Positions 12,990 to 47,278 of a stretch of 56,310 nucleotides of DNA are shown here, piece after piece. This stretch comes from Desulfobacula sp. (GTDB taxonomy: Bacteria; Desulfobacterota; Desulfobacteria; Desulfobacterales; Desulfobacteraceae): contig JABGOU010000023.1 in assembly GCA_018645325.1 (NCBI GenBank), forward strand, positions 1-56,310. The letters run 5' to 3'. A program made the position numbers and the translations under genes. A model generated the notes under the pieces. The model was not told where the DNA came from and made no database searches. It saw only the letters and a program-made list of their open reading frames with translations. Positions within the stretch are counted from its first letter, which is position 1; each line of letters starts with the position of its first letter.

Positions 12990-14357
12990 ATGCAAATAAG
13001 CAGTTCAAATGACGTTTCTCATGTCTTTCATTTCTTTTTGAATCGAGAATATGTTTCCATTGACAGTGCAAAGGGTATCTATCTCTACGATGATAAGGGG
13101 AACCGGTATATAGATGCTTCCGGCGGCCCCATATTGTGTAACCTTGGCCATGGACTTGAGGAGATGGCAGAGGTTCTCGCCGATCAGGCAAAAAAGGTGG
13201 CATATGTTCATCGCATTGATTTTACAAACCCTCCGCTTATCGAAGCGGCACACAAGGTCTGCAAATCGTCTGATTTTGCCATGGATAAGGTCTTTTTTGT
13301 TTCAGGGGGTACAGAAGCCATAGAGATCGGCGTTAAAATCGCCAGGAAATATCATCTGGATAATGGGAAACAGTCCAAGACCCGGGTGATCTCCAGGTGG
13401 CAGAGCTATCACGGCAGCACGGCAGGCGCGCTTGCCTGGACTGGTGCCACGGGCAGAAGATCGGATTTTTTACCCTATCTTCATGATTTTACCCATATCC
13501 CACCCGCTTATTGTTATCGGTGCTGGTTCAATAAAACGCCTGAAACCTGCGATCTGGACTGTGCCAATGCCCTTGAAAATGAAATTATGTGTCTCGGGCC
13601 TGACAATGTATCTGTTTTTCTGGCAGAACCTGTTTCCGGCATGTCCCTCTGCGGAGTTGTGCCTGCAAAGGGATATTTAAAGCGCATCAGGGAAATTTGC
13701 GACAAATATGATGTGCTTTTAATGTATGACGAGGTTATGACGGGAATGGGGCGGACCGGTAAAATGTTTGCCTATGAACACTTTGATGTTGTCCCTGACA
13801 TCCTGGCCCTGGGTAAGGGGCTTGGGGGAGGCTATTTCCCCATAGGTGCAGTGGCTGTTCCGGATTACATCCATAATAAAATTGCCGACAATTCAGGCAT
13901 GTTTGGTGCCGGTCATTCCTGGGGCGGCAACCCCCTTGGCTGTGCAGTGGTATCAAAAACCATTGATTATCTGGCTGAGCATGATCTTGTTGAGCGATGC
14001 CATAAAATGGGTGAATATCTTGATCATAAACTGCAGGATTTAAAAGGGCATCCCCTGGTGGGGGATATCAGGGGACTCGGGTTGATGAGGGGAATTGAGT
14101 TTGTTGAAGATAAAAAAACAAAAAAAACCCTTGATCCCAAATATGCATTTTCAGCACGAGTATCAGCAGAATGCATGAAAAAGGGCATGTTTATTGAATA
14201 CTCGGGTGGATGCAACCGGGGACAGTCCGGGGATATGGTGATGTTCGGTCCTCCTTTTATCATTACTGAAGCCCAGATAGACGAAGCCGTAGAGATCCTG
14301 CATCAAGTCCTGGACAAGGATCTTTTATCCGGGGAGAGTCATCTTTTAACCTTTTGA
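12990..14357 (+). CDS. Class III aminotransferase (PLP-dependent, aspartate-aminotransferase superfamily)
   Basis: 455 residues; RBS AGGAGGA. The PLP Asp is in LLMYDEVMTGMGRTGK (D247) and the Schiff-base lysine in LALGKGLGGGYFPIGA (K276). VSGGTEAIEIGVKIARKYH is the class III cofactor-phosphate region. Residues 175-191 hold four cysteines (CYRC, then C187 and C191), a Cys-rich insert seen in one subgroup of these enzymes and possibly metal-binding. The substrate is uncertain: omega-amino acids, diamines and 2,2-dialkylglycine are all used by relatives. MITE copy 1 sits 93 bp upstream, so the promoter may lie within or next to it. Confidence 0.9.
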   Translation: MQISSSNDVSHVFHFFLNREYVSIDSAKGIYLYDDKGNRYIDASGGPILCNLGHGLEEMAEVLADQAKKVAYVHRIDFTNPPLIEAAHKVCKSSDFAMDKVFFVSGGTEAIEIGVKIARKYHLDNGKQSKTRVISRWQSYHGSTAGALAWTGATGRRSDFLPYLHDFTHIPPAYCYRCWFNKTPETCDLDCANALENEIMCLGPDNVSVFLAEPVSGMSLCGVVPAKGYLKRIREICDKYDVLLMYDEVMTGMGRTGKMFAYEHFDVVPDILALGKGLGGGYFPIGAVAVPDYIHNKIADNSGMFGAGHSWGGNPLGCAVVSKTIDYLAEHDLVERCHKMGEYLDHKLQDLKGHPLVGDIRGLGLMRGIEFVEDKKTKKTLDPKYAFSARVSAECMKKGMFIEYSGGCNRGQSGDMVMFGPPFIITEAQIDEAVEILHQVLDKDLLSGESHLLTF

Positions 14358-14767
14358 CAGAGAATCTTATCTTTCTTGGGCAGATACCCAGAACAAATGA
14401 TTTTGAAGGAATCACTTCCTTTGGCCGCAAAGATGGATCAAACGAAGCGGACAGGGTTATTGAAGATTCCGCCCTTGTCTATAAAACCTCAAAAGGACTG
14501 GTCATTATTACGGGGTGTTCCCATGCAGGTATCTGTAATATCATTGAATATGCCAGAAAAGTCTGTAAAGATCAGACAATTTTAGATGTCATTGGAGGGT
14601 TTCATCTGCTGAATCCTTCTAAGCGCCAGCTTGAGGGAACAATTTCCTATTTTAAAGATCTTTGTCCAAATTCAGTTTATGCCGGCCATTGTACTGATCT
14701 TGCATCAAAAATTGCCCTGTCCAGAGTTGTCAATATAAAAGAGGTCGGGGTCGGGCTTTGCCTCTAA
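14354..14767 (+). pseudogene. Metallo-beta-lactamase-fold hydrolase, N-terminally truncated
   Basis: The 137-residue frame reads NLIFLGQIPRTNDFEG, ALVYKTSKGLVIITGCSHAGI (with the metal-site TGCSHAGI) and YAGHCTD. This matches the second half of the class II MBL-fold family (about 250-280 residues) that includes 7,8-dihydropterin-6-methyl-4-aminobenzene-phosphate synthase-like proteins. The N-terminal half with the HxHxDH metal motif is absent. It starts with a TTG overlapping the aminotransferase TGA and has no RBS, so I interpret it as a relic fused to the aminotransferase end by deletion. An alternative is a stand-alone partial domain read by coupling. Confidence 0.65.
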
Positions 14768-26506: not shown

Positions 26507-27337
26507 ATGAAATGGATGCAGTTTTTAACACCGGTAAAATCAATTGATTTCAGCCGGACGCAAAGCTATATCTCTCAACATCCTGGAGAAGAAATAACGA
26601 TCCTGGATGTGAGACAGCCATCGGAATATCAGGAGAGCCATATCCCGGGAGCCACCCTGATTCCATTACCCCAGCTTGCTGACAGGCTTGGCGAGATTGA
26701 TCCGGAAAAACCGACCTTGGTCTACTGAGCTATTGGAGGGCGCAGCCGTGTCGCTGCGCAAATGCTTGCTGGAAAAGGGTTTAAAAAAGTATTTAATATT
26801 GCAGGTGGGATAACGGCATGGGATGCTAAAACAGCGATTGGAACTGAGGATCTTGGAATGGATCTTTTTACTGGAAAAGAGGAGCCGCAGGAAGTATTAA
26901 AGGTTGCCTATTCCCTTGAACAGGGGTTGTACGATTTTTATATTTCCATGGAAAAAGAAGCAAAAATAGAAAAAGTAAAAGATCTTTTTGCCAATTTATC
27001 AGATATTGAAGTGAAACATCAGATGTCTATTTATTTTGCATATAATGACATAAGTGATGTGGAAGTGGACAAAGAGGAATTTGAAAAAATGGTTGAAACA
27101 AAGGCTTTAGAAGGCGGCCTGTCCACAAAAGAATATCTTGATCTTTTTAACCCTGATCTTAATTCTGAAATAGATGTGATTTCCCTTGCCATGTCAATAG
27201 AGGCCCAGGCGCTGGATCTTTATCAAAGACTATCTGTAAAAATTAAGAATCCAGAATCAAAGGATATTATCAATAGAATTGCCAATGAAGAAAAAGTTCA
27301 TATGGCAAGTCTGGGTAAACTTATGGACAGCCTTTAA
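26507..27337 (+). CDS. Selenocysteine-containing rhodanese fused to a ferritin-like di-iron domain
   Basis: 276 residues if the UGA at 26726-26728 is read as selenocysteine (residue 74). RBS GGAGGAA. Residues 1-105 are a rhodanese domain: ITILDVRQPSEYQESHIPGA, then TLVY-UGA-AIGGRSR. In homologues this position is the catalytic cysteine of the CxxGxRS loop. The frame continues uninterrupted with AQMLAGKGFKKVFNIAGGIT AWDAK-type rhodanese sequence. Residues about 130-275 are a rubrerythrin-like four-helix domain with duplicated metal motifs: E138, E168-x2-H171, E231 and E262-x2-H265. A SECIS-like hairpin follows the UGA. The likely role is persulfide or selenol chemistry coupled to di-iron redox, perhaps peroxide reduction (inference). 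Selenocysteine insertion genes are not in the window. Confidence 0.87.
26726..26759 (+). promoter_or_regulatory. UGA selenocysteine codon and bacterial SECIS-like hairpin
   Basis: UGA (26726-26728) is followed 11 nt later by the stem GCGCAGC (26740-26746) pairing with GCTGCGC (26753-26759) around the loop CGTGTC. The loop begins 18 nt after the UGA and has a G at its second position, both within the range described for bacterial SECIS elements. The hairpin lies wholly within the coding sequence, as required in bacteria. Confidence 0.8.
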
Positions 27338-27425: not shown

Positions 27426-28547
27426 ATGAGAAAACATCTTGTCTTGATTGGGGGCGGGCATGCCCACATGATGACCCTTGAAAATATTGGCAAGTTTGTT
27501 GAAAAAGGGTTTAAAATTACTGTGATTGGCCCTTCTTTTTACCACTATTATTCCGGAATGGGGCCGGGGATGCTGGGCGGGACATACACTCCTAAAGATA
27601 TCCGGTTCGCCACACAGGATGTGGTTCAAAAACAGGGCGGTATTTTTGTAAAAGATAGAGCTATCCGGATTGATCCGGTTAAAAAACAGATTTACACTAA
27701 GACAGGACATACATTTTCATATGATGTGGTTTCCTTTAATGCAGGCAGTTATGTCCCCATGCAGGCAGTCAGGGGAAAAAATGATAATATTTATTCAGTT
27801 AAACCCATTGAAAAGTTAATGGAAGCCGCTGATAAATTAAAGCAATTGTTTTCACAAAAAAAGATTAGTATCAGTATTGTAGGGGGTGGGCCTTCAGCGG
27901 CCGAAGTTGCCGGTAATGTGTGGCAGCTGGCAAAAAAGGTGAATCAGTATATGCCGGATATCCATATTTTTGCCGGTAATAAATTTATGGCAAGATTTCC
28001 CGAAAGTATAAGAGTAAGAGTTCTTTCATCACTTTGCAAAAGGGATATTCAAATTTTTGAAACAGGTTATGTAAAAAATATCAAGCAGGATGAAATCTGT
28101 CTTGAAACAGGGGAAATATTTCCCACAGATTTTATTTTCATGGCCTTAGGGGTTAAACCTTCCACCCTGTTTGAAGAATCAGGCCTGCCTGTTGGGCCGG
28201 ATAAAGGGCTTTTAGTTAATAAATATCTGCAGTGTGAAAAATATCCTGAAATATTTGGTGGCGGCGATTGTATTTATTTTAAAGACCAGCCCCTGGATAA
28301 AGTAGGAGTATATGCAGTGAGGCAAAATCCTGTCCTTCTTCATAATTTGATGGCAGCCCTTGAAGGAAAAAACCTTGAAGTATTTGATCCGGGGCCTGAA
28401 TATCTTTTGATCTTCAACATTGGCGGCGGGGTTGGAGTATTAAAGAAAAAAGGACTGGTGTTTAAAGGAAAGATTGCATTTATGATTAAAAACTATATTG
28501 ATCAAAAATTTATGAAAAAATTTCAAGCCATTGAAAAAGTACTATAG
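27426..28547 (+). CDS. FAD/NAD(P)-dependent oxidoreductase, NDH-2/SelD-associated type
   Basis: 373 residues from the ATG at 27426 (MRKHLVLIGGGHAH), with AGGGGG upstream. The frame extends back to about 27279, but that part overlaps the previous gene and carries the tandem repeat, so it is probably untranslated. The FAD Rossmann motif is VLIGGGHAHMMTL, the NAD(P) motif SIVGGGPSAAEVAGN, and the late FAD motif FGGGDC. GGGHAH, YHYYSGMGPGMLGG and the general layout resemble the NDH-like proteins that in many bacteria are fused to or neighbours of selenophosphate synthetase SelD (family knowledge). It has no redox-active CxxC, so a direct NAD(P)H-to-acceptor role is expected. Located right after the selenoprotein gene. 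Confidence 0.85.
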   Translation: MRKHLVLIGGGHAHMMTLENIGKFVEKGFKITVIGPSFYHYYSGMGPGMLGGTYTPKDIRFATQDVVQKQGGIFVKDRAIRIDPVKKQIYTKTGHTFSYDVVSFNAGSYVPMQAVRGKNDNIYSVKPIEKLMEAADKLKQLFSQKKISISIVGGGPSAAEVAGNVWQLAKKVNQYMPDIHIFAGNKFMARFPESIRVRVLSSLCKRDIQIFETGYVKNIKQDEICLETGEIFPTDFIFMALGVKPSTLFEESGLPVGPDKGLLVNKYLQCEKYPEIFGGGDCIYFKDQPLDKVGVYAVRQNPVLLHNLMAALEGKNLEVFDPGPEYLLIFNIGGGVGVLKKKGLVFKGKIAFMIKNYIDQKFMKKFQAIEKVL

Positions 28548-28567: not shown

Positions 28568-30712
28568 ATGGGAAAAAAATTGGGCTTTAAAATTTTAATA
28601 GTGCTTGCTATCCTGGGGCTGAGCTCAATGTTTTTTTTATTTGATCTGGATCAGTATTTTTCCCTTGCCAACCTGAAAAATGAGCTTGACGCTTTTAAGG
28701 AATATTATGGCCAGAATAAAGTCATGACAATGGCTATTTACATGACCATCTATATTCTTGTAACAGCTTTGTCCCTTCCCGGAGCCGTTATTATGACACT
28801 GGCCGGCGGTGCCTTGTTCGGTCTTTTTTACGGGACCCTTCTTGTCTCCTTTGCCAGCACCATAGGAGCAACCTTAGCCTTTTTAGTTTCCCGGTACATG
28901 TTCAAAGACTGGGTCCAGCAAAAATTTTCATCAAAGCTTTTAGCCATCAATAAAGGGATAGACAAAGAGGGCGGATTTTACCTTTTTACCTTAAGGCTTG
29001 TGCCTTTATTTCCATTTTTTGTGATTAACCTTGTCATGGGACTTACCACCATTCGTACTTTTGTTTTTTATATTGTCTCCCAGATGGGAATGTTTCCTGG
29101 AACCATTGTATTTATTAACGCCGGAACCCAGCTTGCAAAAATAGAATCACCCGGCCAGATTTTATCGTTGAATATTATATTATCCTTTGCATTATTAGGC
29201 ATTTTCCCGATTATTGCAAAACGGATCACTGCAATGATAAGACAGCAGAAAGTATTTTCTAAATTTTCAAAACCAAAGGTTTATGATTATAATCTGGTGG
29301 TAATTGGAGCAGGATCTGCCGGGCTTGTGGCTTCCTATATTGCCGCGGCTGTAAAGGCAAAGGTCGCTTTGATTGAAGAAGATAAAATGGGGGGAGATTG
29401 CCTTAATACAGGATGCGTACCCAGCAAAGCGCTTATTGCCAGTGCCAGGCTTTTATCCTATGCCAAAAGGGCAAAGGAATTCGGGTTCAAAAAAATTATA
29501 GTTGATTTTGATTTTGCAGCTATCATGGAAAGGATTCAGACCATTATTAAACGAGTGGAGCCCCATGATTCGGTTGAGCGGTATACAAAACTGGGTGTTG
29601 ATTGTATAAAAGGCAGGGCAAAAATTATATCTCCCTTTGAAGTAAAGGTGAATGAAAGAATTTTAACCACAAAAAATATCATAATTGCCACGGGCGCAAA
29701 GCCAATGGTTCCGGATCTGCCGGGGCTGGCGCAGACTGACTATCTTACCTCGGACAATATCTGGGATATCAGAACTTTGCCGAAAAATCTGGTGGTTTTG
29801 GGTGCAGGGCCAATCGGATGTGAGCTGGCCCAGGGATTTTCAAGATTGGGATCAAAGGTAACCCTTGTCCAGAGGGGCTCGATGATAATGAAAAAAGAAG
29901 ATCCTGATGCTGGTAAAATCGTTTTGGAAAGGTTTGCTATAGAAGGTATTGATGTTTTTTTGAATCATTCAGCCAAAGCAATTGAAGCCTTTGGAGAGCA
30001 AAAACAATTGATTTGTGATCATGATGGAAAACAAATCAGGGTCACATTTGATAAAATTCTGATCGCCCTGGGAAGAACCCCCAATGTAAAAGGGTTCGGT
30101 ATTGAAGAACTTGGCATTGAGCTCACAGGAAATAATTATATTGAAACCAATGAATTTTTACAGACTAATTTTCCTAATATTTATTGTAGCGGAGATGTCC
30201 ATGGCCGCTACCAGTTTACCCATACAGCTGCTCATGAATCATGGTATTCTTCTGTAAATGCATTGTTCGGCAGCTTAAAAAAATTCAGAGTAGATTATAA
30301 TACCATCCCATGGGCCACATACACTGATCCTGAAGTGGCAAGGGTTGGAATAAATGAGACAGATGCCAAACTTGCAAACCTTGATTATGAAATGGTTAAA
30401 TATGGGATTGATGACCTTGACCGGGCCATAACAGATTCTGAAAATCATGGATTTGTAAAGGTTTTAACCGTGCCGGGAAAGGATAAAATACTGGGTGTCA
30501 CTATTGTCGGGAATCATGCGGCTGATGTTATTGCAGAGTTTGTCCTTGCAATGAAGCATGGAATAGGTCTAAATAAAATTTTAGGGACGATTCATATCTA
30601 CCCTACAATGGCTGAGGCTAATAAGTATGCAGCCGGGTTGTGGAAGAAAAATCATGCGCCGGAAAAATTTCTTGCGCGGATAAAAAAATACCATACCTGG
30701 ATGCGAAGATAA
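28568..30712 (+). CDS. TVP38/VTT-domain membrane protein fused to a MerA/Lpd-type disulfide reductase
   Basis: 714 residues. Residues 1-230 are a TVP38/TMEM64 (VTT) membrane domain: several helices with IMTLAGGALFGLFYGTLLVS and LRLVPLFPFFVINLVMGLT. Residues 240-714 form a class I pyridine nucleotide disulfide oxidoreductase: FAD motif VVIGAGSAGLVA, redox pair in GGDCLNTGCVPSKAL, NAD motif VVLGAGPIGCELA and the dimerisation domain. The end reads IHIYPTMAEANK, so the HxHPT His-Glu pair of lipoamide dehydrogenase is replaced (Tyr before Pro), as in MerA-like relatives. It is therefore not a lipoamide dehydrogenase. Both halves are complete. The fusion tethers an NAD(P)H-linked thiol reductase to the membrane; its substrate is unknown. 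Confidence 0.92.
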   Translation: MGKKLGFKILIVLAILGLSSMFFLFDLDQYFSLANLKNELDAFKEYYGQNKVMTMAIYMTIYILVTALSLPGAVIMTLAGGALFGLFYGTLLVSFASTIGATLAFLVSRYMFKDWVQQKFSSKLLAINKGIDKEGGFYLFTLRLVPLFPFFVINLVMGLTTIRTFVFYIVSQMGMFPGTIVFINAGTQLAKIESPGQILSLNIILSFALLGIFPIIAKRITAMIRQQKVFSKFSKPKVYDYNLVVIGAGSAGLVASYIAAAVKAKVALIEEDKMGGDCLNTGCVPSKALIASARLLSYAKRAKEFGFKKIIVDFDFAAIMERIQTIIKRVEPHDSVERYTKLGVDCIKGRAKIISPFEVKVNERILTTKNIIIATGAKPMVPDLPGLAQTDYLTSDNIWDIRTLPKNLVVLGAGPIGCELAQGFSRLGSKVTLVQRGSMIMKKEDPDAGKIVLERFAIEGIDVFLNHSAKAIEAFGEQKQLICDHDGKQIRVTFDKILIALGRTPNVKGFGIEELGIELTGNNYIETNEFLQTNFPNIYCSGDVHGRYQFTHTAAHESWYSSVNALFGSLKKFRVDYNTIPWATYTDPEVARVGINETDAKLANLDYEMVKYGIDDLDRAITDSENHGFVKVLTVPGKDKILGVTIVGNHAADVIAEFVLAMKHGIGLNKILGTIHIYPTMAEANKYAAGLWKKNHAPEKFLARIKKYHTWMRR

Positions 30713-30756: not shown

Positions 30757-30948
30757 ATGAAAGTAACCATTAGCAAAATGTGTATGGGTGACAGGAATTG
30801 TAATGACCTTTGTCCTGAAATTTTCGAATATGATGAAGATCAGTTAAAGTCAACTATTAAACTGGATGAAATTCCTGAACATCTAAAAGATATTGCTCGC
30901 AGAGCAGCTAGTGAATGTGGCGCTGACGCTATATCTATAGAAGAATAA
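30757..30948 (+). CDS. Single-cluster ferredoxin with an Asp ligand position
   Basis: 63 residues from the ATG after AAAAGGAGT. Cluster motif: C9-x2-D12-x2-C15-x3-C19-Pro with a remote cysteine C54. The second cysteine of the usual CxxCxxCxxxCP is aspartate, as in Pyrococcus furiosus ferredoxin, which can interconvert [3Fe-4S] and [4Fe-4S] forms (established knowledge). It is a cytoplasmic low-potential electron carrier. It lies between the disulfide reductase and rubrerythrin on the same strand and is a plausible electron donor or acceptor for them. Confidence 0.9.
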   Translation: MKVTISKMCMGDRNCNDLCPEIFEYDEDQLKSTIKLDEIPEHLKDIARRAASECGADAISIEE

Positions 30949-30963
30949 AAAAAGAAGGTGAGT

Positions 30964-31539
30964 ATGATAAAATTCAGGGAAAGCCTGACGGCAATTAATC
31001 TTCATACATCCTTTGCAGCAGAAACCCAGGCCAGAACTCGGTATAATTTTTTTGCAAGTAAAGCCCGGGATGATGGATATATCCAGATCGCAAAAATATT
31101 TGATGAGACTGCAGGTCAGGAATTTGAGCATGCACTCCGGTTTTTTAAATTTTTTAATGGGGGAGAACTTGAAATCAAATGGACTTTTCCCACTGGTGTG
31201 ATTAAAGATACCCGCGCAAACCTTCTTTCAGCGGCAGCTTTGGAAAAATATGTCAGTGAAGATATGTATGCCAAATTTGAAAAAATTGCTCGAAAGGAAG
31301 GGTTTGAGAGAGCAGAAGATACATTTAACAAAATTATTGTGGCTGAAAAACATCATGAAAAGCTTTATCTTGAGCTGGCCGACAATATTGCAAGAGACAG
31401 GGTTTTTCAAAAAGATGAGGAAATGGTCTGGCGATGCCTGAGTTGTGGTTACATTCACACGGGAAGAGCAGCACCTGAAAAATGTCCTGCCTGTGTAAAA
31501 CCGGCAGGTTTTTTTGAATTACTTTGTGAGAACTGGTAA
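30964..31539 (+). CDS. rbr: Rubrerythrin
   Basis: 191 residues from the ATG at 30964 (AAGAAGGTG upstream). The N-terminal four-helix domain carries the di-iron ligands E20, E53-x2-H56, E94 and E128-x2-H131. A C-terminal rubredoxin domain has WRCLSCGYIHTG and KCPAC (C158, C161, C174, C177). This is the normal length and order for rubrerythrin, which reduces hydrogen peroxide to water with electrons from rubredoxin or ferredoxin in anaerobes. The adjacent ferredoxin and the two rubredoxins upstream are likely partners. Followed by a hairpin. Confidence 0.95.
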   Translation: MIKFRESLTAINLHTSFAAETQARTRYNFFASKARDDGYIQIAKIFDETAGQEFEHALRFFKFFNGGELEIKWTFPTGVIKDTRANLLSAAALEKYVSEDMYAKFEKIARKEGFERAEDTFNKIIVAEKHHEKLYLELADNIARDRVFQKDEEMVWRCLSCGYIHTGRAAPEKCPACVKPAGFFELLCENW

Positions 31540-45572: not shown

Positions 45573-46745
45573 ATGAAAATCGTATATGCGGATAACAATG
45601 CAACAACAAAAGTGGCCGACGAAGTCATAGCAGAAATGCTTCCCTATTTGGGTGAATTATATGGCAATCCCTCCTCCATGCATACCTTTGGCGGGCAGGT
45701 GGGAAAAAAAATTCAACAGGCCAGACAGCGTGTGGCGGATTTCATCAATGCCGATCCCGATGAAATTGTTTTTACAAGTTGTGGAACAGAGAGTGATAAT
45801 GCAGCCATCAATGCAGCCATTAATGCCTTTCCTGATAAAAAACATATTATTACCTCCAATGTAGAGCACCCGGCCATTAATAACCTTTATAAGCATCTTC
45901 AAAAAACAAAGGGATATGAGGTCACGTTTGTCCCCGTGGATGAAAAAGGATTTTTAGACCTGGACCTGCTGTATAAAAGCATGTCCGATAACACGGCCAT
46001 TGTCTCATTAATGTGGGCAAACAATGAAACAGGGGTTTTGTTCCCCATTGAAGAAATTGCAAAAAAAGCCAATGAAAAAGGGATACTTTTTCATACGGAT
46101 GCGGTTCAGGCAGCCGGTAAAATTCCCATTGATGTCAAAAAGACAGGCGTGGATATGCTCTCTCTTTCCGGGCATAAAATACATGCTCCCAAAGGGATTG
46201 GTGTGCTTTATGTGAAAAAGGGGTTCAAGTTTTCACCCTTACTGATTGGCGGACATCAGGAAAAAGGACGGCGTGGCGGCACTGAAAACACAGTATCCAT
46301 TATCGGTCTTGGAAAGGCCTGCGAGCTTGCCAAAGCCAATCTGCCCATCATGGACACCCGGGTCAGGGAGCTTAGGGATTATCTTCAAACGCAGCTGTTG
46401 GAAAAAATTCCCGGATCATCTGTTAATGGAGACCTTGAGCAACGGCTTCCAAGTACCTTGTATATCGGGTTTGATGCAGTGGAAGGAGAATCCATCCTTC
46501 TGATGCTGGACCGTGAGGGAATCTGTGCATCTTCAGGATCTGCCTGCACATCAGGATCTTTAGACCCTTCCCATGTGCTCATGGCAATGAAAGTACCCTT
46601 TAAGTCAGCCCATGGTTCCATTCGATTTTCTTTGTCTCATTATAATACAAAGGAAGAGATGGATATTATTATTAATACCCTTGTTCCTGTGATTCAAAAT
46701 CTCAGAGATATGTCGCCTTTTTGGAAAGATGGAAAAATGGTATGA
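45573..46745 (+). CDS. iscS: Cysteine desulfurase, NifS/IscS type
   Basis: 390 residues. PLP lysine K202 in LSGHKIHAPKGIGVLY, His in VEHPAI, Asp in HTDAVQAAGKIPI. The catalytic cysteine C325 is in CASSGSACTSGSLDPSHVL, the extended-loop form of group I desulfurases. It strips sulfur from cysteine for IscU. It lies 11 bp after iscU, and its TGA overlaps the hdrC ATG, so this electron-transfer pair is tightly coupled to the ISC genes. Confidence 0.95.
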   Translation: MKIVYADNNATTKVADEVIAEMLPYLGELYGNPSSMHTFGGQVGKKIQQARQRVADFINADPDEIVFTSCGTESDNAAINAAINAFPDKKHIITSNVEHPAINNLYKHLQKTKGYEVTFVPVDEKGFLDLDLLYKSMSDNTAIVSLMWANNETGVLFPIEEIAKKANEKGILFHTDAVQAAGKIPIDVKKTGVDMLSLSGHKIHAPKGIGVLYVKKGFKFSPLLIGGHQEKGRRGGTENTVSIIGLGKACELAKANLPIMDTRVRELRDYLQTQLLEKIPGSSVNGDLEQRLPSTLYIGFDAVEGESILLMLDREGICASSGSACTSGSLDPSHVLMAMKVPFKSAHGSIRFSLSHYNTKEEMDIIINTLVPVIQNLRDMSPFWKDGKMV

Positions 46746-47278
46746 TAGATCTGGATGACAGCCATAAAAGTCTTTTAGATGAAATTACGGCAAGTTCAGG
46801 AATTGATTTTAGTTCCTGTCTGCACTGTAAAACCTGTGCAAATGGCTGTCCATTTTTAGAGGGTATGGATTATCCCCCCAATGGCGTTATCCGCCTTATC
46901 CAGTTTGGAATGGAAGAAGAGGCCTTGAAATCTTCCACCATCTGGGTATGTGTGGGGTGCAATACCTGCAGCAGCAGCTGCCCTATGGCAATTGACATCC
47001 CTGCTATAATGGACATCCTTCGTCATAAAGCCATTGAAAAAGGTGTTAAAATAGCAGAACCTGATATATTAAATTTTCATACCGAAGTATTGAATACTGT
47101 AAAAAAATACGGCAGAACCCATAAGCTTGAGATTATGATGCGGTATAAACTCAAGACAATGGATCTTCTCAGTGATATGGGCATGGGCCTTAAAATGCTG
47201 AAAAAAAGAAAGCTGGACTTAACACCGTCAAAAATTCAGGATAAAAAAGCCATTGGAAAAATCTTTAAAAAGAAATGA
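46742..47278 (+). CDS. HdrC-like 4Fe-4S ferredoxin subunit
   Basis: 178 residues from the ATG at 46742 (ATGA overlap with iscS). Two complete CxxCxxCxxxCP motifs: C26, C29, C32, C36 and C70, C73, C76, C80. The helical tail is rich in Met and Lys. This is the layout of heterodisulfide reductase subunit C and of the Fe-S subunits paired with CCG-domain proteins. Probably passes electrons to or from the HdrB-like partner encoded next. No HdrA or membrane subunit is nearby. Confidence 0.9.
   Translation: MIDLDDSHKSLLDEITASSGIDFSSCLHCKTCANGCPFLEGMDYPPNGVIRLIQFGMEEEALKSSTIWVCVGCNTCSSSCPMAIDIPAIMDILRHKAIEKGVKIAEPDILNFHTEVLNTVKKYGRTHKLEIMMRYKLKTMDLLSDMGMGLKMLKKRKLDLTPSKIQDKKAIGKIFKKK

Follow-up and report, generated by a model that had tools for sequence, protein, structure and literature searches.

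The 56,310-nucleotide stretch of Desulfobacula sp. DNA analysed here (the window) carries a gene in which a rhodanese domain is fused to a ferritin-like domain and which contains a single in-frame UGA (Table 1). The ATG is preceded by aggagg, which resembles a ribosome-binding site, and the UGA falls at residue 74 of 276 in the context TLVY-U-AIGGRSR, with an identical frame on either side. As stated in the preliminary description, the UGA lies at the site of the rhodanese catalytic Cys in a frame that is otherwise open, and a 7 bp hairpin with a CGTGTC loop follows it, the stem starting 11 nt and the loop 18 nt after the UGA. The two ExxH motifs ascribed to the ferritin-like half were likewise found (E168-H171 and E262-H265), and this half scored over the cut-offs of the Pfam families Rubrerythrin (52 bits, cut-off 22.8) and Ferritin_2 (25.2 bits, cut-off 24.7).

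Table 1. Positions of the fusion gene, its parts, and the genes that follow it in the window.
Feature	Position	Strand	Basis
Rhodanese/ferritin-like fusion gene, 276 codons, single in-frame UGA	26507..27337	+	Translation, Pfam, full-length relatives
Rhodanese domain, residues 28-107	26588..26827	+	PF00581, 72.8 bits (cut-off 22.2)
UGA, predicted Sec 74, rhodanese nucleophile position	26726..26728	+	UGA or Cys at the aligned codon in relatives
Bacterial SECIS hairpin (predicted)	26740..26759	+	Core pairs kept in UGA genes, synonymous resampling
Ferritin-like four-helix domain, ligands E138, E168, H171, E232, E262, H265	26885..27334	+	PF02915, PF13668, model
FAD/NAD(P) oxidoreductase, next gene	27426..28547	+	Best NCBIfam TIGR03169 (domain N-terminal to SelD), 254.3 bits, below cut-off 310
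VTT membrane domain fused to MerA/lipoamide-dehydrogenase-like reductase	28568..30712	+	PF09335, PF07992, PF02852
Small ferredoxin	30757..30948	+	PF13370
Rubrerythrin	30958..31539	+	NF045767, 229.1 bits (cut-off 200)

The FAD oxidoreductase gene was also found beside the relatives of the fusion gene. Among the matches listed, it lay on the same strand at a distance of less than 400 nt in 105 of the 144 class loci with at least 900 nt of downstream sequence (69 of 86 genes with UGA at codon 74, 35 of 57 genes with Cys, and one frame-broken gene). Outside the class it was the next gene in only 7 of 68 loci, so it is not an obligatory partner there. In the alignment of the FAD oxidoreductases, column 282 was the sole column with more than 30% Cys; it lies in a GDC motif and was Cys in 103 of 103 rows, including that of the window. 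Sulfide:quinone reductases have two catalytic Cys residues, and since 282 was the sole Cys-rich column, these two are not both present in the FAD oxidoreductase. Farther downstream, the VTT-MerA fusion on the same strand, the ferredoxin, and the rubrerythrin were present in 11, 14, and 12, respectively, of 15 loci of the named collection with 4 kb of downstream sequence. From these surroundings we infer an oxygen-stress setting or operon. The VTT domain is TVP38-like. Elsewhere in the window, the frame at 45573-46748 looked by eye like a NifS/IscS-like cysteine desulfurase and was followed by heterodisulfide-reductase-like iron-sulfur frames, and a scan of TGA-extended frames showed at 14171-14767 an apparent C-terminal portion of a protein with the metallo-beta-lactamase fold, which overlaps an aminotransferase-like frame at the latter's end.

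Codon 74 and the hairpin in related genes

The class was searched in 389 genomes, at least 232 of which matched at E ≤ 1e-15, and 150 loci were read among the matches listed. Of these loci, 91 had TGA as codon 74 and 58 had TGT or TGC; in the remaining one (L187) the codon was out of register. For the phylum, 395 genomes were searched and 71 matched at E ≤ 1e-45. Of the 72 places listed, 68 were read; three of the other four duplicated class loci, and one (G012) was left out. The 68 loci comprised 21 with TGA and 47 with Cys. Altogether, UGA occurred in 112 of 218 loci, and no codon other than UGA or one for Cys was seen in the 217 readable loci, an outcome that the preliminary description had named as support. 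In the named collection, all 24 rhodanese-ferritin loci (L042-L065) had TGA at this codon, and two further hits (L066 and L067) matched in the rhodanese part alone; this search is biased to near relatives because it was built on peptide patterns of the window protein. Its UGA carriers include metagenome genomes of Desulfobacula and Desulfotignum, Desulfospira joergensenii DSM 10085, and Desulforhopalus sp. IMCC35007, and the nearest named relative at the locus is a Desulfobacula (88%). At L064/L187, the UGA was present at the site, the frame broke further on, and a UGA was visible in another frame; the contig coverage was 2.65, and the break is probably an assembly error. One Cys copy (L248, genome G523, contig C40) carried an in-frame TAG.

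For the tree and the ligand counts, 144 of the 150 class loci were used, L182-L187 being excluded as partial or broken. On the best tree (a quick one, built from the 144 full-length proteins after residue 74 had been masked), Sec and Cys had been exchanged at least 17 times, and on well-supported branches alone 7 independent Sec/Cys pairs were left. UGA and Cys copies occurred together in the genome bins G323 (L130 and L166) and G331 (L142 and L184), whose estimated contamination was 6 and 5%, respectively. Because of the repeated exchanges and the coexistence of both copies in these bins, Sec and Cys can be said to serve one common scaffold. The use of Cys does not follow from a loss of the machinery, since SelB was over the cut-off in 323 of the 389 class genomes; on the same count, SelB presence was rejected as an explanation of the Cys users.

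The selenocysteine machinery to which the preliminary description had pointed was present in the genome of the window (4.39 Mb, 157 contigs, 90% complete). tRNA-Sec (contig C103, 75.5 bits), SelA (C68, 582.9 bits), SelB (C13, 337.8 bits), and SelD (C125, 342.4 bits) were all over their cut-offs. In 14 control genomes, the tRNA-Sec, SelB, and SelD searches gave matches in all and were over the cut-off in 5, 2, and 2, respectively, and the SelA search matched 4 of the 14 and was over the cut-off in one; only scores over the cut-off were used, because weaker matches occur in control genomes. The SelD gene (L193, C125:34334-35260) contains one in-frame TGA and is therefore probably itself a Sec form. 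The same genome holds a second rhodanese selenoprotein candidate (L007, contig C42, about 540-1073 plus flanks), which looks secreted and has three rhodanese-like repeats. Two of these carry UGA in the motif YCxGxTU-KLSH, whose UxxS fits "form 1" in the available part of PMC13188914.

The UGA might instead be a normal stop codon or result from a sequencing error or a decay mutation, leaving a truncated rhodanese and a dead fragment, and the standard code does end the gene at residue 73, with a second frame starting at ATG 26762. Against this stand the machinery just described and the 112 loci that share the UGA at this codon, most of them uninterrupted over their full length apart from the one TGA. 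The part downstream of the UGA is also under selection: changes were more numerous at the third position than at either of the others in all three segments (12 of 12 comparisons), a sign of constraint on both sides of the codon. Sequencing error, which the preliminary description had raised, is excluded because the 112 loci share the UGA at the aligned codon, and in the light of the homologous sequences the whole explanation is already refuted, with next to no chance of being correct. UGA read as tryptophan or by plain readthrough was dropped, Cys being the sole alternative residue found. Comparison of the sequences thus makes it very probable that the gene encodes a selenoprotein in which this UGA is decoded as selenocysteine.

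The hairpin pairs 26740-26746 with 26753-26759 around the loop at 26747-26752 and covers the codons for R-S-R-V-A-A-Q. Its conserved core consists of the five inner pairs (26742-26746 with 26753-26757), which were complete in 83 of 91 UGA genes versus 11 of 58 Cys genes at class loci among the matches listed; the outer two pairs were not conserved, being formed in 43 and 47 of the 91 UGA genes. Synonymous codon resampling with each group's own usage gave an expectation of 1.1 ± 1.0 of 91 UGA genes and 0.5 ± 0.7 of 58 Cys genes. The Ala codon that the pairing obliges to end in T was GCT in 85 of the 91 UGA genes and in 13 of the 58 Cys genes; elsewhere in the UGA genes, GCT made up 337 of 2145 Ala codons. 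In five UGA genes (L128, L129, L130, L132, and L133) one C-G pair was replaced by A-T, the 3' change also turning Ala into Ser; the replacement may be a single event, and Ser occurs at the same position in a few Cys genes as well (L114 and L125).

Outside the class, the exact core was present in 16 of 21 UGA genes versus 4 of 47 Cys genes, and the other 5 UGA genes showed an apparent shifted GAGCC/GGCTC stem, as judged by eye; the exact five pairs were thus missing from these 5 and from 8 of the 91 class genes. A looser scan for stems of at least 5 bp found hairpins in 85 of 91 and 21 of 21 UGA genes, yet it discriminated poorly because many Cys genes matched too (38 of 58 and 23 of 47). UGA and Cys genes did not differ in the folding energy of the whole segment (p 0.32), and a phylogeny-corrected pair test, for which the 7 supported pairs were too small a number, was not significant (median p 0.375). 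The covariation score was slightly higher when the 3' arm was slid by -3 (0.068 versus 0.059 in register), and pairing peaked in register (84.4% versus at most 66.5% at other slides). A scan of the window against Rfam at gathering scores gave no matches.

Domain architecture and known systems

The full di-iron ligand set (E, ExxH, E, ExxH) was conserved in the class, five ligands being present in 144 of 144 proteins and H171 in 143 of 144; in the 68 loci outside the class each ligand was kept in 66 to 68, and the set persisted down to about 39% identity. The rhodanese loop is of the CxxGxR type, with D34, R36, G77, R79, and S80 found in 144 of 144 proteins. No other column of the 144 proteins reached 20% Cys; there is therefore no second conserved Cys, and the partner for turnover should come from outside. 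An AlphaFold model based on a 17-row alignment (mean pLDDT 80.8, pTM 0.82) showed alternating strands and helices in the first half, a weak linker at residues 101-113, and then four long helices. The 50 Foldseek rows among the matches listed mostly had rhodanese titles or were known rhodanese-domain proteins and included no ferritin or rubrerythrin titles; sequence comparison alone was used to place the ferritin half (1vjx and 2fzf). In the PDB, NADH-persulfide reductases are among the relatives of the rhodanese half. Fusion to a third domain was considered for 14 genes, most of them chosen for a long open frame, and rejected, the extra parts looking by eye like spurious or separate upstream frames.

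Several known systems share parts of this architecture. The NCBIfam models NF041203 (CxU) and NF045694 (TsoB) also describe a rhodanese domain with Sec, but the window protein is not a member of either (35.6 bits against a cut-off of 115 and 20.3 against 805), and no NCBIfam model exceeded its cut-off for the fusion protein. Rubrerythrin (NF045767), a copy of which lies further down on the same strand, has the same four-helix domain with two ExxH motifs; in the fusion, however, the Pfam scan found no rubredoxin-like Fe(SCys)4 domain, and an N-terminal rhodanese is present instead. The NADH-persulfide reductases (Npsr and CoADR-RHD) likewise pair a FAD pyridine-nucleotide oxidoreductase with a rhodanese, whereas here each has its own gene and a di-iron domain is joined to the rhodanese. 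In the persulfide dioxygenase-rhodanese fusion BpPRF, an iron domain is also fused to a rhodanese for sulfane sulfur. That iron domain has a mononuclear metallo-beta-lactamase fold, which was absent from the window protein in the Pfam scan.

Rhodanese-like selenoproteins, on which the preliminary description is silent, have been catalogued as forms 1-5 in a table of PMC13188914 and are also covered by PMC9312934 and PMC1088965 (each as available in part). In the accessible part of that table, forms 2 and 4 are given with the motif UxxG, which the U-A-I-G of the window protein fits, and with PF00581 as the only domain named (example entry for form 2, MBM9537886.1), whereas the window protein has a ferritin-like half in addition. 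Form 2 may be the window's protein, which is perhaps partly known since the available parts of the reviews list rhodanese selenoproteins, one form with UxxG. The word "ferritin" did not occur in the available main text of PMC9312934, PMC13188914, PMC1088965, and PMC2398784, nor did "rubrerythrin" in that of PMC9312934 and PMC13188914; the accessible portions of PMC12013277 (deep-Sep) contained none of "rhodanese", "ferritin", and "rubrerythrin", those of PMC1794560 neither "ferritin" nor "rubrerythrin", and those of PMC8346489 did not name the window's protein. In the literature covered, which is partial, we found no rhodanese fused to a ferritin or rubrerythrin domain with selenocysteine, and an earlier description is possible. 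Rhodanese selenoproteins as such are thus already known; the di-iron fusion architecture is unnamed in the review passages available and has no NCBIfam model at cut-off.

Possible function of the fusion protein

As the most likely function we tentatively propose chemistry of sulfane sulfur and peroxide, as part of an oxygen-stress operon. The hairpin just 3' of the UGA very probably directs Sec insertion, giving a rhodanese with a Sec nucleophile joined to a complete di-iron ferritin-like domain. In the proposed chemistry, the selenolate would accept sulfane sulfur from a persulfide or polysulfide, forming Se-S; peroxide or oxygen would be reduced at the di-iron site, and electrons from NAD(P)H would reach one or both sites through the neighbouring FAD oxidoreductase. 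Overall, the protein would resemble a rubrerythrin with a sulfur carrier replacing rubredoxin. This chemistry is supported by the near-invariant ligands, the lack of a second Cys, the adjacent FAD gene, and the ferredoxin and rubrerythrin that follow, and reduction of peroxide by persulfide or selenol chemistry, as first suggested in the preliminary description, is plausible. A further and rather doubtful version is a di-iron selenoenzyme in which a sulfur-carrying selenolate and a carboxylate-bridged di-iron site would together dispose of peroxide or oxygen, the electrons coming ultimately from NAD(P)H via the adjacent flavoprotein. To our knowledge, no described enzyme pairs selenocysteine with a ferritin-type di-iron site.

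Other selenoprotein functions may be weighed against this proposal. The protein could simply be a sulfurtransferase or a persulfide reductase; Sec would then do no more than accelerate the transfer or protect against over-oxidation, and the ferritin-like domain would have a structural role or sense oxygen. This somewhat unlikely explanation agrees with the repeated interchange of Sec and Cys on the best tree and with the NADH-persulfide reductases among the PDB relatives of the rhodanese half, but not with di-iron ligands that are retained in such distant homologues. Repair of iron-sulfur clusters, with the rhodanese supplying sulfur, the ferritin-like domain supplying iron, and the FAD enzyme reducing persulfide to sulfide, would suit two domains that can be regarded as natural carriers of sulfur and iron and would suit the ferredoxin and rubrerythrin as neighbours. 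The near-invariant di-iron ligands, however, are at least as compatible with a catalytic site as with a labile store, none of the six scanned neighbours belongs to the Isc or Suf families, and the NifS/IscS-like frame noted by eye is 18 kb away; we consider cluster repair unlikely. A role in selenium handling, in which the Sec-rhodanese would carry selenium towards selenophosphate synthesis and the SelD-related FAD enzyme would act as reductase, is more improbable still. Rhodanese is known as a selenium carrier for SelD, and the best family of the FAD partner, if below its cut-off, is the domain N-terminal to SelD. Ndh-SelD fusions have also been described (PMC2398784, available part). On the other hand, SelD is encoded elsewhere in the genome, Cys replaces Sec in 58 of the 150 class loci among the matches listed, the di-iron domain would be left without a role, and a Sec enzyme needed for making Sec would be circular, even though the SelD gene of this genome itself has a TGA.

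Whichever function applies, the family is a widespread predicted selenoprotein of sulfate reducers and their relatives, with 112 UGA genes among 218 loci, and such genes are easily lost in annotation as two fragments. With at least 17 exchanges of Sec and Cys on one tree, it offers a good natural series for studying the benefit of selenium in an enzyme of sulfur and oxygen chemistry.
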